A stretch of 27,333 bases of DNA from a virus. Below are positions 1,960 to 14,630 of the stretch, in pieces; within the stretch, counting starts at the first letter, position 1; each line of letters begins with the position of its first letter. A program made the position numbers and the translations under genes. The stretch spans positions 1 through 27,333 of IMG/VR virus record IMGVR_UViG_3300042260_000700; one strand, given 5' to 3'. Under the pieces are notes generated by a model. The model was not told the DNA's origin, searched no databases, and saw only the letters and a program-made list of their open reading frames with translations.

Positions 1960-2871
1960 ATGAAACACTCATTAGCATCAAAAGGATTGTCATTATCTCA
2001 AGCACAATCAATTTCAAATCTTTGCAATCAAAGAAGTCGAGACATTCAGGCTGAAATTTCAGTAATTAACAATGCTGAAAAGACACTTAAGTTTGAAGGG
2101 GCGGATTATATTAAGCAAGTTGCAAATCCAATGCCGACAAACATTGTTGAATTGTTACAAGAGAAGTCTCGTCTTCATGCAACTCAAGCATTCTTAATGG
2201 AGAACATCCGAGCTAAAGATGAGTTGTTGAAAAGCAAACAACGAGAGTCATTGCGATTTGAGAAAGAGTCTCCTTCATCTCCGGATTTTGAATATGCACA
2301 AGAATTAGAACATGTATCTGAGTCTTGGGGTTGGGATCAATTGACAACAGCTCAGTGGGAAGAATACTTAGAAGCTGAAGCTTATGCATCTCACATTGGT
2401 CAATTTATTCATAAAGGTGGTAAATTAGATGAGTTGCGTAAGGAATTGCCAACCATGGAATTGTTAGAGTGGGCAGAAATTGAAACTGGAAAGAAAACTC
2501 CAGTGCAAGTTGAGAAACATCACACGTTATCGGGGTTGTCAGCAATTCACGAAGAATTATCCATATTGCACCGAGGATATGAACAACGAGTTAACTATTT
2601 CAAGGCAATGGTTAAGAATGCAGTAACCGTTGAAAATGCTAGACGAGAGCGTGTAAATGCAGACGAAGCTGCTCGTGTTAATCAAATCAATGACGTATTG
2701 AAGTCTGATTATGACACACTTCGAAGAGAATGGATTGAAGTTAGAAAACAAGCAGAGTTTGATTTCAATGAAGCTAAGCAAAAAGAAATTGCAAGAATTG
2801 CAGCATTGAGAATTGAAGTTCCAGCTCGATTCCAACCAGTAGTTAATGAGTTCCTTAAAGGATTAGAATAA
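1960..2871 (+). CDS. helical/coiled-coil protein of unknown function
   Basis: A 303-aa protein not assigned to a family. It is mostly charged helix, with long coiled-coil stretches at about residues 20-110 and 205-285. There is no signal peptide, membrane segment or catalytic motif. A tryptophan-rich patch (ESWGWDQLTTAQWEEYLEAE, about 122-141) may be a small folded domain. It has its own class II promoter upstream and a terminator right after the stop, so it is a single-gene unit between the RNA genes and the next operon. Length and composition would suit a structural or DNA-associated scaffold protein, but this is a guess. Confidence 0.85.
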   Translation: MKHSLASKGLSLSQAQSISNLCNQRSRDIQAEISVINNAEKTLKFEGADYIKQVANPMPTNIVELLQEKSRLHATQAFLMENIRAKDELLKSKQRESLRFEKESPSSPDFEYAQELEHVSESWGWDQLTTAQWEEYLEAEAYASHIGQFIHKGGKLDELRKELPTMELLEWAEIETGKKTPVQVEKHHTLSGLSAIHEELSILHRGYEQRVNYFKAMVKNAVTVENARRERVNADEAARVNQINDVLKSDYDTLRREWIEVRKQAEFDFNEAKQKEIARIAALRIEVPARFQPVVNEFLKGLE

Positions 2872-2878
2872 TTGGGTT

Positions 2879-2920
2879 AGCATACGGGATAAGCACAAGC
2901 CGTGTCTCGTATGCTTTTAT
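2879..2920 (+). terminator. rho-independent-like terminator
   Basis: AGCATACG 2879-2886 pairs with CGTATGCT 2908-2915 around a 21-nt loop and is followed by TTTTAT. It ends the 1960-2871 transcript. The loop is long for an intrinsic terminator. Confidence 0.6.
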
Positions 2921-2921
2921 G

Positions 2922-3247
2922 TTGGATGATGAAGTTTTTATGATATATAAAAGATACATATAAACTACATTTAAGAAACCTTCTCCGGTCGGTTTCATGA
3001 CTCTGCGCTAATGCGCTCACATCCGCTTCCTTTACAAACTCTCAAAACTGAGATAGAACTCATTAGATAGACAGGTTAAGTACCTAGCGGCGTACAATTG
3101 GCTATCGAACGAGACTTAGTTTTTGATTTTGTCTTTGCAGTAAGGGAAGGTCTTTGATTTGGCATTTGATTTAGATTTAGTCTATATGCTTTATCATCCC
3201 GCAACTCGATATTATTATGCCCTAGCAGAAATGTTAGGGCTTTTTAT
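2922..3247 (+). ncRNA. candidate phage ncRNA unit with promoter and terminator
   Basis: No convincing ORF lies in 2872-3281. A class II-like promoter (TTGGATGAT at 2922, TATATAAAAG at 2944, spacing 22) would start RNA near 2956. A good terminator closes the unit: GCCCTA 3219-3224 / TAGGGC 3235-3240 plus T7. The predicted RNA is about 285 nt. It contains small hairpins (AACC/GGTT near 2978, CTCA/TGAG near 3045) and a U-rich 3' half with repeated TTTGATTT near 3120-3175. Sequence alone does not say whether it acts as RNA. Confidence 0.45.
3219..3247 (+). terminator. intrinsic terminator
   Basis: A 6-bp stem GCCCTA / TAGGGC with a 10-nt loop, followed by seven T. It lies directly before the class II promoter of the next gene. 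Confidence 0.75.
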
Positions 3248-3280
3248 TTGGATATATAAACATTATTCTATATAATATAG
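3248..3280 (+). promoter_or_regulatory. class II phage promoter
   Basis: TTGGATATA at 3248 and TATAATATAG at 3271, spacing 23. The start codon of the phosphoesterase follows at 3282, so the mRNA would be nearly leaderless or start slightly inside the box region. Confidence 0.7.
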
Positions 3281-3281
3281 T

Positions 3282-4022
3282 ATGAAGATTACATTGATAA
3301 GCGATACGCATACAAAGCATCGTAATATTGGTACTACGAAAAGTTATCGCAAAAATAATCAGCCGTTGGATTTGCCGGGTGGCGACATATTGATTCATGC
3401 TGGTGACTTTATGAGCTCAGGATATAATCCAATGGAAGCGATGGAGTTCTTTAAGTGGTTTGATGAAATAGACAATTACGATTTCAAAGTTTTTATTGCG
3501 GGTAATCACGATCGTTGGATGCAAGATGAGCCTGAGGAAGCTCGTGGCATATTGACAGGATATAAAACAATTGAATATCTACAAGATGATTGGATGACAG
3601 TTGGAGATAGTGATCTGCATGATCCAAATGTAAATACTGCTAAAATCTATGGTAGTCCTTGGCAACCTGAGTTCTATAATTGGGCTTTCAACTTACCTCG
3701 CAACGGAGAAGAAATGAAAGCCCGTTGGGATGCTATTCCGACTAATACAGACATACTAGTTACGCACGGCCCTCCATATGGATATTTAGATATACCAGGC
3801 GGACAAAGTATACGAGTTGGATGTGAAATGTTACGTCATCGTGTAGATGAGATACGTCCAAAGATTCATGTATTTGGTCATGTGCATGGAAGCTATGGTC
3901 ATTACTACAACGGTCATACGCATTTCTTTAATGCATCAGTATTGAATGAAAGATATAGCTACGCAAACTTACCATTCACATTCGAATGGAACCCAATAAC
4001 AAATGAAATAAATTGGTTATGA
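3282..4022 (+). CDS. calcineurin-like metallophosphoesterase (MPPED/UPF0046-like)
   Basis: A 246-aa phosphoesterase with the full set of metal-binding motifs: D8xH10 in LISDTHTKH, GGDILIHAGD (about 33-42), AGNHD (73-77), a THGPP motif near residue 163, and FGHVHGSYG near residue 198. GDILIHAGD with THGPP and FGHxH is typical of the MPPED1/2 group, which hydrolyses phosphomonoesters or phosphodiesters using Mn or Fe. The phage substrate is unknown; cyclic nucleotides or nucleic-acid ends are possible. The gene has its own class II promoter and overlaps the next gene by ATGA. Confidence 0.9.
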   Translation: MKITLISDTHTKHRNIGTTKSYRKNNQPLDLPGGDILIHAGDFMSSGYNPMEAMEFFKWFDEIDNYDFKVFIAGNHDRWMQDEPEEARGILTGYKTIEYLQDDWMTVGDSDLHDPNVNTAKIYGSPWQPEFYNWAFNLPRNGEEMKARWDAIPTNTDILVTHGPPYGYLDIPGGQSIRVGCEMLRHRVDEIRPKIHVFGHVHGSYGHYYNGHTHFFNASVLNERYSYANLPFTFEWNPITNEINWL

Positions 4023-4396
4023 GTAAATTAGGAAATAGAGAAATACCAATGACGCTAACCGAAGAGAATGTTCTTAAGATTGCTGTCGAACAAGGAGTAG
4101 TTGAAAACGAATTCAATTGGAAATTAGTTAGGGAACATGATGGTTTAACTAATCAATCTAAAGAAGTAATGTGGATTGAATGGGATGAATTGAGTGGACG
4201 TTTTAAAGCACAACATGATGAGCCTGCGTTAGGTCGATCATTGATGATGTCGCCATTCAATCATTTCTTTACTTGGCAGACAACAGTAGTAACTGAGATT
4301 ACGGAACAACAAGAAGATTTAGTCGTATTCAAAACACAAAATAGTAATTATACTTTGCGTAAACTATACGCGGCCGCAACTGGTAATCCAGTATAA
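4019..4396 (+). CDS. conserved-looking phage protein, unknown function
   Basis: About 125 aa. I choose ATG 4019, which overlaps the phosphoesterase stop as ATGA, over ATG 4013 two codons earlier, because ATGA coupling recurs here. There is no membrane segment or known motif. The middle is tryptophan-rich (VMWIEWDELSG; HFFTWQTT) and the end looks like a small beta-rich domain. It is translationally coupled to the phosphoesterase, which hints at a shared role, but nothing in the sequence proves this. Confidence 0.8.
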   Translation: MSKLGNREIPMTLTEENVLKIAVEQGVVENEFNWKLVREHDGLTNQSKEVMWIEWDELSGRFKAQHDEPALGRSLMMSPFNHFFTWQTTVVTEITEQQEDLVVFKTQNSNYTLRKLYAAATGNPV

Positions 4397-9987: not shown

Positions 9988-11106
9988 ATGGAAAACAACA
10001 ATAGTGTATGTTACGTAGGAATCGTAACTGAAGTAAAAGCAATTGAAGGTGCTGACAACATCGAACAAGTAGTTGTAGGTGGATGGAATGCTATTACTAA
10101 AAAAGGTGAATATTTTGAAGGTAACGCAGTAATAATTGCAACTACCGATGCAGTAATTCCTTTTGAATTATCTGAAAAAATGGGAGTTACTTCTTACCTA
10201 AGAAAAGGACAAAGAGTAAGAACAGTTAAATTAAGAGGAGTCTACTCAGAGTGTTTACTTATCCCAGGTACTTACTATAAAGAAAAGTTCTTAGTAGAAG
10301 GTAAAGACTGTATGGAAAAATTAGGAATTACCAAATACGAACCACCAGCTGTACAAATCCAACTTGCTTCAGGTCGTAAATTAAAATACCACCAAAATCC
10401 AAACTTTGGAGTATATTACAAGTTTCCTAACTTGAAAAACGTAACAGGAATGTTTACTGAAGAGGATAATGTAGTAATTACTAGAAAAATCCACGGTACA
10501 AATGCTCGTTATGGTATTGTTAAGAAAAAGAAAATATCTATTTGGGATAAAGTAAAACGATTCTTTGGCAATAAATGGGTAGAATATGAATACGTTTATG
10601 GTTCACATAACGTTGAAAAAGGATCTGATTCACAAGGATTCTATTCTACCGATGTATGGAGAACTATTGCTGACGAATACAAAATCAAAGAGAAGTTGTG
10701 GGAATATGTAAAAGAGTATTACGTACCTCAACATTTAGGTAGTGGTATTGTGATATATGGTGAGATCTACGGACACGGAATCCAAAAGAACTATGATTAT
10801 GGTTTAAAGGATATTAAGTTTGCTGGATTTGATGTTGAGGTTGACGGAGACTACCAATCTTACTTCAATGAAAGAACAATCTTCCACATTTTGGATTTAC
10901 CAACCGTAGAATTGTTGTATCGTGGTAACTGGTCTAAAGAAGAACAAGACCAATTGGTGTTCGATAACTTTATCGAAGATACTAAAGTACCACATGAAGG
11001 TATCGTTATTAAAGCATTAGATGGTAACCGACAAAAAGTAGCCAAAGTAATCAACCCAGATTACCTAATCTATGGAGAAAAACATAATGTGGGAGATAGC
11101 CACTAG
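9988..11106 (+). CDS. RNA ligase, Rnl5/DraRnl-like, with N-terminal OB-type domain
   Basis: 372 aa. The N-terminal domain (about 1-115) is as in Deinococcus-type RNA ligase. The nucleotidyltransferase core has motif I K167-IHGTN (adenylated lysine), a YGSHNVEKG segment (204-212), motif IIIa YGEIYGHG (257-264), motif IV HEGIVIK (336-342) and motif V KVAKVINP (350-357). The enzyme seals nicked or broken RNA using ATP. In phages, such ligases with a kinase counter anticodon nucleases. Here a P-loop kinase lies upstream and the window has interrupted tRNA-like genes, so repair or splicing of tRNA is a reasonable hypothesis. Confidence 0.9.
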   Translation: MENNNSVCYVGIVTEVKAIEGADNIEQVVVGGWNAITKKGEYFEGNAVIIATTDAVIPFELSEKMGVTSYLRKGQRVRTVKLRGVYSECLLIPGTYYKEKFLVEGKDCMEKLGITKYEPPAVQIQLASGRKLKYHQNPNFGVYYKFPNLKNVTGMFTEEDNVVITRKIHGTNARYGIVKKKKISIWDKVKRFFGNKWVEYEYVYGSHNVEKGSDSQGFYSTDVWRTIADEYKIKEKLWEYVKEYYVPQHLGSGIVIYGEIYGHGIQKNYDYGLKDIKFAGFDVEVDGDYQSYFNERTIFHILDLPTVELLYRGNWSKEEQDQLVFDNFIEDTKVPHEGIVIKALDGNRQKVAKVINPDYLIYGEKHNVGDSH

Positions 11107-11113
11107 CAACAGG

Positions 11114-11146
11114 TTGGATAAATGAAAACAATTTCTTATTATATAG
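11114..11146 (+). promoter_or_regulatory. class II promoter of the NAD module
   Basis: TTGGATAAA at 11114 and TATTATATAG at 11137, spacing 23. It precedes the prs-nadV pair. Confidence 0.7.
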
Positions 11147-11157
11147 AAAAATAAGAT

Positions 11158-12090
11158 ATGATGATAATATTAAATTTAGCAAAACCCGAAAAATCAGATA
11201 TCAAATTCAAAATCGATACATTTCCTGATGGACAACAACAACTTCGATTCGAAGGGTTACAGATTGGCCTTATTAAAGGATATGATAATCCTAATTTTGA
11301 TTATCAAATCACAATCAAGTCTCGTTTAAATAATTTTAAAGACTTAGAATTGATATGTTGTGCAGTTGCATCATTACGAGAATTAGGTATTACGAAAATC
11401 CATTTAGCTACACCTTATTTTCTAGGAAGTAGAAGTGATAGAAAATTTGAAGAAGGATCAAATAACTATTTGAAAACGGTTATTTGCCCAATTATCAATT
11501 CATTGAATTTTAAATCAGTAACTGTCCTAGACCCACATTCGGATGTATTAGAAGCATGTTTAAATAACTTTAGGAAAGTTAATAATTTTGCTCTAGTTGA
11601 TGACGCACTTTCATACTTAATTGGAGAAGATGAAGAAGACCAAATCGTATTAGTTTCACCGGACGCAGGTGCTTACAAGAAAATATTTGATGTTGCTAAG
11701 GAGTTTGACATTGAAAAAATCATTACAGCAACTAAAGTTCGTGACTTAAAAACAGGTCAAATCCTACGAACCGAAGTTCCAACACTAGATCAACATAACA
11801 ATCTAAAATATGTTATTGTAGATGATATCTGTGATGGTGGTAGAACATTTATTGAATTGGCAAAAGCAATTAAAGGTAATCGCCCAACCGCTGAAATTTA
11901 TTTAGTAGTAACACATGGTATTTTCAGTGGTGGTTTTGATGATCTTGATGTATTTTTTGATGGTATATTTTGTACCAATTCATATGAAGATATTGAATCT
12001 AAAGTATATGGTGCTAAAGCATCCACTACAAATAGTAAAGGATCCAGTATAACTAAACCAAATTTTGTAAGACAATTAAATATATTCTAA
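11158..12090 (+). CDS. prs: ribose-phosphate pyrophosphokinase homologue (Prs/Adps-like)
   Basis: 310 aa, usual Prs length. Motifs: SRSDR (91-95, position of the ATP-binding loop), DPHS (125-128), VSPDAGAYKK (166-175), KVRD (193-196, catalytic-lysine region) and the PRPP loop VDDICDGGRT (221-230). A classical Prs makes PRPP from ribose-5-phosphate and ATP. The phage homologue Adps of the NARP1 pathway instead pyrophosphorylates ADP-ribose. Pairing with a NadV homologue 1 nt downstream fits either. Sequence alone does not decide the substrate. An ATG at 11161 is an equal alternative start. Confidence 0.9.
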   Translation: MMIILNLAKPEKSDIKFKIDTFPDGQQQLRFEGLQIGLIKGYDNPNFDYQITIKSRLNNFKDLELICCAVASLRELGITKIHLATPYFLGSRSDRKFEEGSNNYLKTVICPIINSLNFKSVTVLDPHSDVLEACLNNFRKVNNFALVDDALSYLIGEDEEDQIVLVSPDAGAYKKIFDVAKEFDIEKIITATKVRDLKTGQILRTEVPTLDQHNNLKYVIVDDICDGGRTFIELAKAIKGNRPTAEIYLVVTHGIFSGGFDDLDVFFDGIFCTNSYEDIESKVYGAKASTTNSKGSSITKPNFVRQLNIF

Positions 12091-12091
12091 T

Positions 12092-12922
12092 ATGAATCCA
12101 TTACTTTTAACCGATGGTTATAAAACAGGCCACCACCAACAGTATCCAAAAGGAACAACGTTGGTTTATTCAAATTTCACTCCACGTAGCAACAAGTATG
12201 CTCCAAAAGGTTGTGATCAAGTAGTATCATTTGGGCAACAAATGGTAATGCAACAAATCCACGAAGCATTCCAAAATGAATTCTTTAGTCGTCCTAAGGA
12301 ACAAGTTTGTGGTGAAATGAAACGTGAGTTGTCAATGTATCTAAACACTGACTATGATGTATCTCATTTTGAGGCATTGTGGGATTTACAGTATCTTCCA
12401 ATTACCGTAAAAGCATTACCTGAAGGTACATTAACCCCAATTAAAGTTCCTGTATTGACTATTTACAATACACACCCTGACTTCTATTGGGTTACCAATT
12501 ATTTAGAAACAATCCTTTCCAACCTATTGTGGAAACCAATGACATCGGCTACCATTGCTCACCAATACAGAAAAGTATTGACTAAATGGCAAGAAAAAAC
12601 TGATGCTGAAAAATCATGGTTTATCGATTGGCAAGGACATGACTTCTCAATGCGTGGAATGGATAGCGTTGAAGCAGTCATCAGTTCAGGTGTAGCCCAT
12701 TTAACTTCATTCATGGGTTCAGATAGTTTACCTGCAATTTATGGAGCTCGTAAATATTATGGAGCTGAAGGCCCAGTTGCTGGATCAGTAAACGCAACGG
12801 AGCATAGTGTAGCCTGTGCATTAACAGAGTTTATTGATATTGAAGTTGAAGAAGAATATTTAGTCGAAGTTGAATATGATGATCTAGGAAATATTATTTC
12901 GGAGACTGAGATTTTGGAATAA
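12092..12922 (+). CDS. nadV: nicotinamide phosphoribosyltransferase homologue, N-terminal piece
   Basis: 276 aa: the N-terminal part of a NadV/NAMPT-family enzyme (Namat in NARP1). Visible are TDGYKTGHHQQYP (7-19), HDFSMRGM (183-190, nicotinamide-site Phe and Arg), MGSDS (208-212, substrate Asp) and NATEHSVACA (234-243, phosphorylated catalytic His238). The normal enzyme continues directly into the phosphate-binding half. Here the frame ends at TAA 12920 after an acidic linker (EVEEEYLVEVEYDD), and the rest is encoded from 13688. The last 29 nt also encode the C-terminus of the antisense HNH gene. Likely functional only if the two pieces associate. Confidence 0.9.
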   Translation: MNPLLLTDGYKTGHHQQYPKGTTLVYSNFTPRSNKYAPKGCDQVVSFGQQMVMQQIHEAFQNEFFSRPKEQVCGEMKRELSMYLNTDYDVSHFEALWDLQYLPITVKALPEGTLTPIKVPVLTIYNTHPDFYWVTNYLETILSNLLWKPMTSATIAHQYRKVLTKWQEKTDAEKSWFIDWQGHDFSMRGMDSVEAVISSGVAHLTSFMGSDSLPAIYGARKYYGAEGPVAGSVNATEHSVACALTEFIDIEVEEEYLVEVEYDDLGNIISETEILE

Positions 12923-13640
12923 ATGACCATCCCAATTGTTCATATGTATATCCAACCATAGAATCATCTAAGCCGATAGAAGTTTTTACTAGTTTTTTCG
13001 TTATTATTGTACTGCTATTTGTTTTACATCTAGATCTAATAACATCAGCAGAAACACCTAATATATCTGCTGGCTCTTTGGCTGTTTTAAATATACCAAT
13101 TGGCGTTACATATTCTCCTTTATATGACGCATTTCGTTCCGGATGATTTGTTTTAGTAGAAGATATTTTTAATTTAGTTTCAATCGACCTAGGCTTTTTA
13201 TATAGCGGATGATTTGTTCCAGTTCTTCCTCGCATAGGGTTTTCGTCAGATAACATACGAGCTCGTATTATCTCAATATGGTTTTTATTCAATTTCTTAT
13301 TTGAGTGCAACGATGAATTACTGCGTTGAAATGCTAATTTAGCTTCATCATATGTGCGTGATGATATTTTATAATCTCGTTTAACGTCTCCTGTTACTTG
13401 ATTACACATTGCAAAGAACGCGAAAGCTAATTTATAATTATCGGGATATATTCTAATAAGTAGCCAATGTGCTATAAAATGTTCTCGGGCTGTAAGTAAT
13501 ACTAAATTCGATTTTGAGTTATCTCCACCCATACATTTTGGAATAATATGATGGCGTTCGAAATAAACATGTTTAGACTTAATTCGGTTGGAATTTAACG
13601 CATTATTTATTATATTATTATAAATTAATTGGTAGTTCAT
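12894..13640 (-). CDS. HNH homing endonuclease inserted antisense within nadV
   Basis: 248 aa from ATG at 13640; longer upstream starts read into the leader of the nadV C-piece and spoil homology. The HNH core is ERHHIIPKCMGGD (28-40) then NLVLLTAREHFIAHW. The second HNH enzyme at 20918 begins in the same way (MNYQ-I-, ERHHI-P-C-GG, NLV-LTAREHFI-H). The C-terminus has a NUMOD1-like segment (TPIGIFKTAKEPADILGVSA). It is the only confident minus-strand gene in the window. Only about 47 nt of the insert is non-coding, so this is not a group I intron or an intein but a free-standing endonuclease. Confidence 0.88.
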   Translation of the reverse strand: MNYQLIYNNIINNALNSNRIKSKHVYFERHHIIPKCMGGDNSKSNLVLLTAREHFIAHWLLIRIYPDNYKLAFAFFAMCNQVTGDVKRDYKISSRTYDEAKLAFQRSNSSLHSNKKLNKNHIEIIRARMLSDENPMRGRTGTNHPLYKKPRSIETKLKISSTKTNHPERNASYKGEYVTPIGIFKTAKEPADILGVSADVIRSRCKTNSSTIITKKLVKTSIGLDDSMVGYTYEQLGWSFIPKSQSPK

Positions 13641-13687
13641 ATTAATATATATGGCTCCGGCACACATAACAAACAAAAAATTTATTT

Positions 13688-14596
13688 ATGAAAAAAATTG
13701 AAAAACGTATACGAATTGTTAAGAAGACGACAACTAATGAACTAGGTGGTATACGTCATTTGTTAAATGTATACCCAACGGGAATACTTAGTATGGTTAG
13801 TGATACATTCGATTTATGGAGAATGTGTACAGAATATCTACCGGTTCTGAAAGAAGAGATTATGGCTCGTGATGGTAAATTGGTTATTCGTCCTGACTCA
13901 GGTGACCCAGTTAATATTCTCTGTGGAATGAGAGTAATGACCGAAGACGAATTTAAAGCGTTTGTATACACTGATGAGTATAGTTACAAAACAAATGGAA
14001 TAACTATCTTAAAAGATGGTGTATATTATGAACCAGAAGTTAACCATTGGCCCGACGGCTGTGTTGATTGGGCTGGAGCAGATATGGATGGTAAAACCTA
14101 TAGCGAACATGAAGTGAAAGGCGTTATTGAATTACTTTGGGATGTATTTGGTGGAACAATCAACGAACAAGGTTACAAAGTACTAGATCCACACATCGGA
14201 GCAATTTACGGAGATTCGATTACAATTGATCGTGCCGATGAAATCTGTAGAAGATTAGCTGCAAAAGGATTTGCATCAACCAATGTGGTATTAGGGATTG
14301 GTTCATTTACATACCAATACAACACCCGAGATACATTTGGATTTGCAATGAAGGCAACGTATGTTGAGGTAAATGGTGAAGGTAGAGAAATCTTCAAGGA
14401 TCCTATCACAGATGATGGTACTAAGAAGTCTGCGACTGGTTTGTTAATGGTTACAAGACCTAATGATGGCGATTATCAATTATTCGATAAAGTAAATTGG
14501 AATAATGAAGCCAATGGTGAATTAAAAACTATTTACAGAGATGGTAAGTTCCATAATGCAACGACCTTAGACAAAATCCGTAACCGATTAAAATAA
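13688..14596 (+). CDS. nadV: nicotinamide phosphoribosyltransferase homologue, C-terminal piece
   Basis: 302 aa. It begins with a new ATG and MKKIEK, then the native-looking linker KRIRIVKKTTTNELGGIRHL and the rest of the NAMPT fold: YPTGILSMVSDTFDLW (29-44), phosphate/PRPP site VIRPDSGDP (66-74), IYGDS (173-177), GIGSFTYQ (203-210), FKDPITDDGTKKSATG. Together the two pieces hold all expected active-site motifs in order, with no duplication or loss. The leader is A/T-rich with no Shine-Dalgarno. The break lies in a non-conserved insertion loop, so assembly in trans is plausible. It ends the prs-nadV operon before a strong terminator. Confidence 0.9.
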   Translation: MKKIEKRIRIVKKTTTNELGGIRHLLNVYPTGILSMVSDTFDLWRMCTEYLPVLKEEIMARDGKLVIRPDSGDPVNILCGMRVMTEDEFKAFVYTDEYSYKTNGITILKDGVYYEPEVNHWPDGCVDWAGADMDGKTYSEHEVKGVIELLWDVFGGTINEQGYKVLDPHIGAIYGDSITIDRADEICRRLAAKGFASTNVVLGIGSFTYQYNTRDTFGFAMKATYVEVNGEGREIFKDPITDDGTKKSATGLLMVTRPNDGDYQLFDKVNWNNEANGELKTIYRDGKFHNATTLDKIRNRLK

Positions 14597-14603
14597 ATTA
14601 TTA

Positions 14604-14630
14604 AGTGTCTACTTCGGTAGGCACTTTTTT
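14604..14630 (+). terminator. intrinsic terminator with TTCG tetraloop
   Basis: AGTGTCTA 14604-14611 pairs with TAGGCACT 14618-14625; the loop CTTCGG adds a C-G closed UUCG. T-run 14625-14630. It ends the NAD module. Confidence 0.9.

Follow-up and report, generated by a model that had tools for sequence, protein, structure and literature searches.

Some phage genes are interrupted by homing endonuclease genes, and the products of their pieces act together. The split NrdA of Aeromonas phage Aeh1 functions with a large subunit made of two chains, as (alpha-a+alpha-b)2beta2 (PMC3267527), the T4 topoisomerase gene is split by mobA, and gene 43 of Aeromonas phage 25 is split with a seg gene (PMC2988022). 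The Namat of phage SpbetaL1 is also relevant here, as its contact residues, clamp-loop alternatives and clamp-helix signature, GSX-phi-X-phi-X-phi-TRD where X is aromatic, have been described (PMC12774641). The virus record IMGVR_UViG_3300042260_000700, analysed over its full 27,333 bases and referred to as the window, has a Namat-like gene in two pieces on the plus strand, with an HNH homing endonuclease gene between them on the minus strand. We consider it fairly probable that an ancestral Namat gene was split by antisense insertion of the HNH gene, that the two halves reassemble into a working enzyme, and that the endonuclease homes into intact alleles.

The first piece (12092..12922, 276 amino acids) and the second piece (13688..14596, 302 amino acids) match complementary parts of one protein family. 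In PHROG 448, which has 500 profile positions, the first piece corresponds to 14-275 (E 1e-96) and the second to 261-494 (E 5e-95), and NCBIfam NF006629 is likewise matched by both pieces in complementary parts. The HNH/NUMOD3-type gene (12894..13640, minus strand) starts at a conserved ATG at 13640, and its 3′ end shares 29 nucleotides (nt; 12894-12922) with the end of the first piece. These coordinates and lengths, the antisense open reading frame (ORF) and the overlap had been given in a first-pass annotation, and all were reproduced on recheck. Its figure of about 47 nt of non-coding DNA holds when the conserved ATG is used; the uncoded gap (13641..13687) then separates the divergent starts of the HNH gene and the second piece. 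The HNH frame stays open upstream of this ATG as far as a TTG at position 13676. The split layout is not an assembly artefact, since matching layouts are found in two other contigs from other metagenomes.

Uninterrupted alleles, which the first-pass annotation had proposed to look for, map the site and agree with its reading of a gene in pieces. About 130 viral loci have one open frame in which first-piece residues 1-243 are followed by four residues and then by second-piece residue 17. There are 107 distinct intact homologues from viruses and 66 from bacterial genomes. According to the viral ones, the break falls within a loop of four residues (GGKE, GSKD, GTKD and similar) just past the catalytic-His motif, which in SpbetaL1 numbering is at residues 251-254, soon past the catalytic His245. 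The break had been described as lying in a charged, non-conserved linker; the charged sequence is indeed present, but in split alleles only, and the site in intact genes is the short loop. The closest intact gene (L108/L002, on one contig) has 95% amino acid identity to the conserved core of the first piece (residues 1-243, 12092..12820; compared with L108) and 74% to that of the second (residues 17-302, 13736..14596; compared with L002). Relative to intact genes, the first piece has 33 additional C-terminal residues, the second has about 16 additional N-terminal residues, and the four-residue loop is lost or replaced.

Both cores were mapped by residue to SpbetaL1 Namat. The structures closest to the intact relative are those of this enzyme (9W5X/9W5W, 536 bits), compared with about 236 bits for human NAMPT. 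The clamp-helix motif is present as GSFTYQYNTRD at second-piece residues 205-215, and 19 of the 21 mapped SpbetaL1 contact positions are identical in the window pieces. The two others are Lys35, followed by Tyr36, which is one of the clamp-loop alternatives described, and Ser177 in place of Ala362, as in the intact relative. The third position of the clamp loop should be Arg, Lys or Tyr, accompanied by a stacking residue, and Lys35-Tyr36 represents the Bas63-type alternative. Given the clamp motif and the contact residues, the gene appears to be better named Namat (NARP1) than NAMPT. The earlier proposal that NAMPT motifs are distributed over two pieces stands as to the complementary family matches and the retained active-site residues, and the name of the enzyme is revised.

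The mapped contact positions divide nine to the first piece and 12 to the second. The first piece carries Asp8, Tyr10, Lys35, Phe185, Ser186, Arg188, Asp211, Ala235 and His238; the second carries Arg68, Asp70, Gly175 and Asp176 together with the clamp motif. The Nampt-like core (catalytic His, Arg306, Asp308, Asp215, Phe189, Arg192, Asp13 and Tyr15) is found in its entirety across the two pieces. Loss of active-site residues had been put forward earlier as a possible sign of a dead gene, and the residues that were tested are kept. Because the contact residues are divided between the pieces, neither piece alone would be able to form the active site, and both would be needed.

At the break, both pieces have ends that are not present in intact alleles. 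The first-piece tail (residues 244-276; 12821..12922 with the stop codon), LTEFIDIEVEEEYLVEVEYDDLGNIISETEILE, consists of 33 residues and is acidic, with a net charge of -13. The second-piece head (residues 1-16, 13688..13735), MKKIEKRIRIVKKTTT, consists of 16 residues and is basic, with a net charge of +6. Charges of this size are rare. In a set of 710 proteins from related loci, a C-terminal 33-mer with a net charge of -13 or lower occurs in one, and an N-terminal 16-mer of +6 or higher in four. Homologous ends occur in a phage contig of a different metagenome, L113, which has the same antisense HNH insertion in Namat; its tail is ITEFSEIEIEEEYKVQVVYDDNGNIISETEV and its head MKTVIETRKRVVKKK. 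When the portion outside the HNH-gene overlap is compared between the window and L113, 24 of 37 tail and head residues are kept despite 36 nt changes (P=0.0001, with changes placed at random). The ratio of nonsynonymous to synonymous substitution (dN/dS) for the tail is 0.14 at a dS of 1.3. Since the ends occur only in split alleles, the selection on them acted after the split.

AlphaFold2 modelling of the first piece predicts strands at residues 257-262 and 268-274, and the tail may thus form a beta-hairpin (predicted local distance difference test of about 70 at the extreme C-terminus, compared with 30-50 just before the strands); model quality is modest, and each piece was modelled singly. 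By analogy with the Aeh1 enzyme, the oppositely charged ends probably hold the two halves together. The tail was not found in 50,697 phage records. A pattern search of viral contigs gave none beyond L113; a companion alignment search missed even L113 and is weak evidence of absence.

The inserted gene matches the PHROG 655 homing endonuclease family (E 5.5e-53), and its matches to Pfam HNH and NUMOD3 are just under the cut-offs. The HNH proteins of the window and L113 are 56% identical and both keep an HHIIPK...N...H motif. When 106 loci with HNH relatives were inspected, Namat pieces around them were found only on L113's own contig.

A different endonuclease has entered Namat at almost the same position. 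In L042 (IMGVR_UViG_3300042356_001193, from another metagenome), the gene is split within a few codons of the window site by an antisense endonuclease ORF that is unrelated to the window HNH gene. It is a GIY-YIG/NUMOD3-like gene (L042 3442-4236, minus strand) with a C2H2-like zinc finger; GIY-YIG is a reading of the sequence, and the tool matches are to PHROG 314 homing endonuclease and Pfam NUMOD3. A search for relatives of this protein in the viral collection found only the protein itself. One Namat site is therefore the target of unrelated endonuclease families, HNH and GIY-YIG.

L042 also has a sister phage, L058, in which Namat is intact. Between the two phages, DNA identity is 95-100% until about 30 nt short of the insert, drops to 47-80% over the roughly 280 nt that follow the insert, and returns to 92-100% farther on. 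Homing is expected to leave such a co-conversion pattern (PMC2988022), and with a low-identity tract just downstream of the insert and high identity on either side, the L042 flank reads as a clear co-conversion tract. The same allele was found in another sample (L405, 99.97% identity), on a contig that ends at the insert edge. The window gives a weaker signal, which is a dip only: over the first 120 nt of the second core its identity to L108 is 60-65%, in a stretch over which L108 and L109 agree at 95%.

Just past the break, the three split alleles (window 13796-13850, L113 7700-7755, L042 4400-4455) have SDTFD[LI]W..CTEYLP. Intact alleles of the neighbourhood mostly have SDTWDLW..CTEHV, and the combination DTFD..CTEYLP is in no intact allele of the set. 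Possibly the shared motif is a co-converted flank, or it may be an adaptation. A tree of the post-break stretch has long branches and does not resolve whether the split alleles, three in all, have a single origin. The Namat identity, the charged ends conserved in a second phage, the nearby GIY-YIG split and the co-conversion tract all go beyond the first-pass annotation.

The gene immediately upstream of Namat (11158..12090, plus strand) is phosphoribosyl pyrophosphate-synthetase-like, Prs or Adps (PF00156; PHROG 619, ribose-phosphate pyrophosphokinase), and is the probable first gene of a NARP module. Its stop codon is 1 nt ahead of the ATG of the first Namat piece. Directly upstream of the pair is an RNA ligase gene with a PHA02142 OB-fold domain (9988-11106). 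A hairpin with a T run that resembles an intrinsic terminator by consensus match only (14603..14626, plus strand) lies 7 nt past the second piece, and a consensus scan found no terminator-like hairpin on the plus strand within the insert. With this arrangement, one plus-strand transcript spanning both Namat pieces is possible. In L113, the Prs/Adps gene is also split (2517-4241, its N part ending at 2969 and its C part beginning at 3827), and the insert is a LAGLIDADG-like ORF on the sense strand that includes a helix-turn-helix stretch; thus both NARP-type genes of L113 are in pieces. Prs/Adps matches at 184 other loci are in one segment.

The closest cellular homologues of Namat (L417-L490) have 58-69% amino acid identity and lie for the most part on contigs of Flavobacteriia, a hint that the host may belong to the Bacteroidota and that Flavobacteriia may have a cellular Namat. 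Phage Aeh1 also has a NAMPT-like gene, which is annotated as similar to PBEF (L491 44563-45001; Aeh1 79562-81007).

The sequence of events may be pictured as follows. A one-piece phage Namat ancestor would have been split by a free-standing antisense HNH gene in the loop past the catalytic-His motif (ATEHSVMCA-GGKE-DEV). A plus-strand transcript would run from Prs/Adps via the first Namat piece, the antisense HNH gene and the second Namat piece to the terminator, and the halves would be translated separately. The acidic beta-hairpin tail might then pair with a basic strand of the head, and the most likely outcome is a working enzyme whose two halves are held together non-covalently. The rejoined halves would form the Namat dimer, make nicotinamide adenine dinucleotide (NAD) from nicotinamide and ADP-ribose pyrophosphate (ADPR-PP), and counter NAD-depleting defence. 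The endonuclease would spread by cutting intact alleles at or near the conserved site, with co-conversion of the flanks.

Several observations weigh against a functional reassembly. Next to the break, intact genes almost always have the Met of ATEHSVMC, whereas the window allele has Ala at this position (residue 241, window 12812-12814). The L042 pieces are without charged ends, and that split looks recent. When the pieces are modelled singly, the head is disordered in the second piece and the first piece is poorly folded. In the neighbour-gene test for Namat, the adjacent gene is Prs-like, and sequence matches do not separate Adps from Prs. Lastly, the L113 second piece has two single-base frame changes.

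Perhaps, then, the split killed a counter-defence gene that was dispensable, and its two pieces are remnants kept only through the self-drive of the endonuclease in the population. NARP genes may be non-essential in some hosts; the altered Met, the apparently recent L042 split and the L113 frame changes would also fit such a history. We find it unlikely, however, as the catalytic and clamp residues are retained and the split-only ends are conserved as protein at a dS above 1. The dN/dS between the window and L108 is 0.06 for the first piece and 0.20 for the second, and 0.12 and 0.20 for the same parts of an intact-intact pair. Purifying selection like that of the intact pair argues against a dead gene, although part of the divergence may predate the split. 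An interpretation of the L113 frame changes as decay was rejected, since unrelated genes of the contig are affected too, among them Prs/Adps and one near 11140-11734; sequencing indels are the likely cause.

A self-splicing intron that carries an antisense HNH gene would place the tail and head in intron sequence and join the pieces at the RNA level. In nuclear ribosomal DNA, some group I introns do contain an antisense endonuclease gene (PMC9548176), and in principle the loop codons can be rejoined in frame. But only about 170 nt of the insert lie outside the HNH gene, and Rfam gave nothing but a tRNA in the whole window at the gathering score and chance-level matches only in 12700-13850 at E<=10. 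The tail and head evolve as protein, and the second piece has its own ATG, as it does in L113. An intron is therefore very improbable. A split intein (a ‘fractured gene’), with the endonuclease between intein halves and the protein joined by trans-splicing, is scarcely credible even though Dassa and colleagues are said to have described split inteins with the same genomic layout in 2009, as the extra ends total 49 amino acids and are too short for a Hint fold, match no Pfam intein family even at E<=10, and have no terminal Asn followed by Cys, Ser or Thr at the second junction. Thus by every test run the insert is neither an intron nor an intein, as the first-pass annotation had argued. Translational bypassing over 765 nt is implausible as well, the second piece having a separate start in addition to the extra ends.

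A selfish homing element here sits inside the gene of a counter-defence enzyme, and the locus offers what is predicted to be a naturally two-piece NAD-making enzyme. It resembles SpbetaL1 Namat of NARP1 in its catalytic core, dimer contacts and selectivity-clamp motif, but SpbetaL1 Namat is a single chain and the window enzyme is in two pieces. It shares with the L042 split Namat an antisense endonuclease at nearly the same codon, whereas the L042 endonuclease is of an unrelated type and the charged ends are missing there. With the T4 topoisomerase and phage 25 gene 43 it has in common an endonuclease-associated split and pieces that must work together (PMC2988022), although the host genes differ.

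The Aeh1 nrdA-a/mobE/nrdA-b locus is the nearest parallel, and had been put forward as such at the outset. In both, a free-standing HNH homing endonuclease gene divides one enzyme gene into two pieces, and intact sister alleles exist (for Aeh1, those of Ah1 and PX29). Re-examination of the Aeh1 pieces brought out charged ends of the same kind. Compared with intact Ah1 and PX29 NrdA, the first Aeh1 piece has an extra basic C-terminal segment, KEKMLFKVKKSEVDKFKLMVATDQYKSLRY (+5), and the second an extra acidic N-terminal segment, MIEHERIYEVYEDEEYTTVEIEVDVS (-9). These tails are reportedly essential, according to work by Crona and colleagues in 2011. It should be pointed out that the host genes differ (nrdA and Namat), and that nrdA-A, mobE and nrdA-B are all on one strand in the Aeh1 record, whereas the window HNH gene is antisense. 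The resemblance is one of anatomy, from which we infer the assembly of the window halves. With slightly less than even confidence, we suggest that endonuclease-split enzymes repeatedly gain oppositely charged beta-strand docking ends, with Namat and Aeh1 NrdA as independent cases, and that the Namat loop is a hot spot for at least two endonuclease families, both antisense. The polarity is reversed between the two enzymes, the Aeh1 tail being basic and its head acidic, the window tail acidic and its head basic; the window thus adds a second case of charged ends that follow a gene split, the mirror image of the first, and the proposal of a general remedy becomes directly testable.
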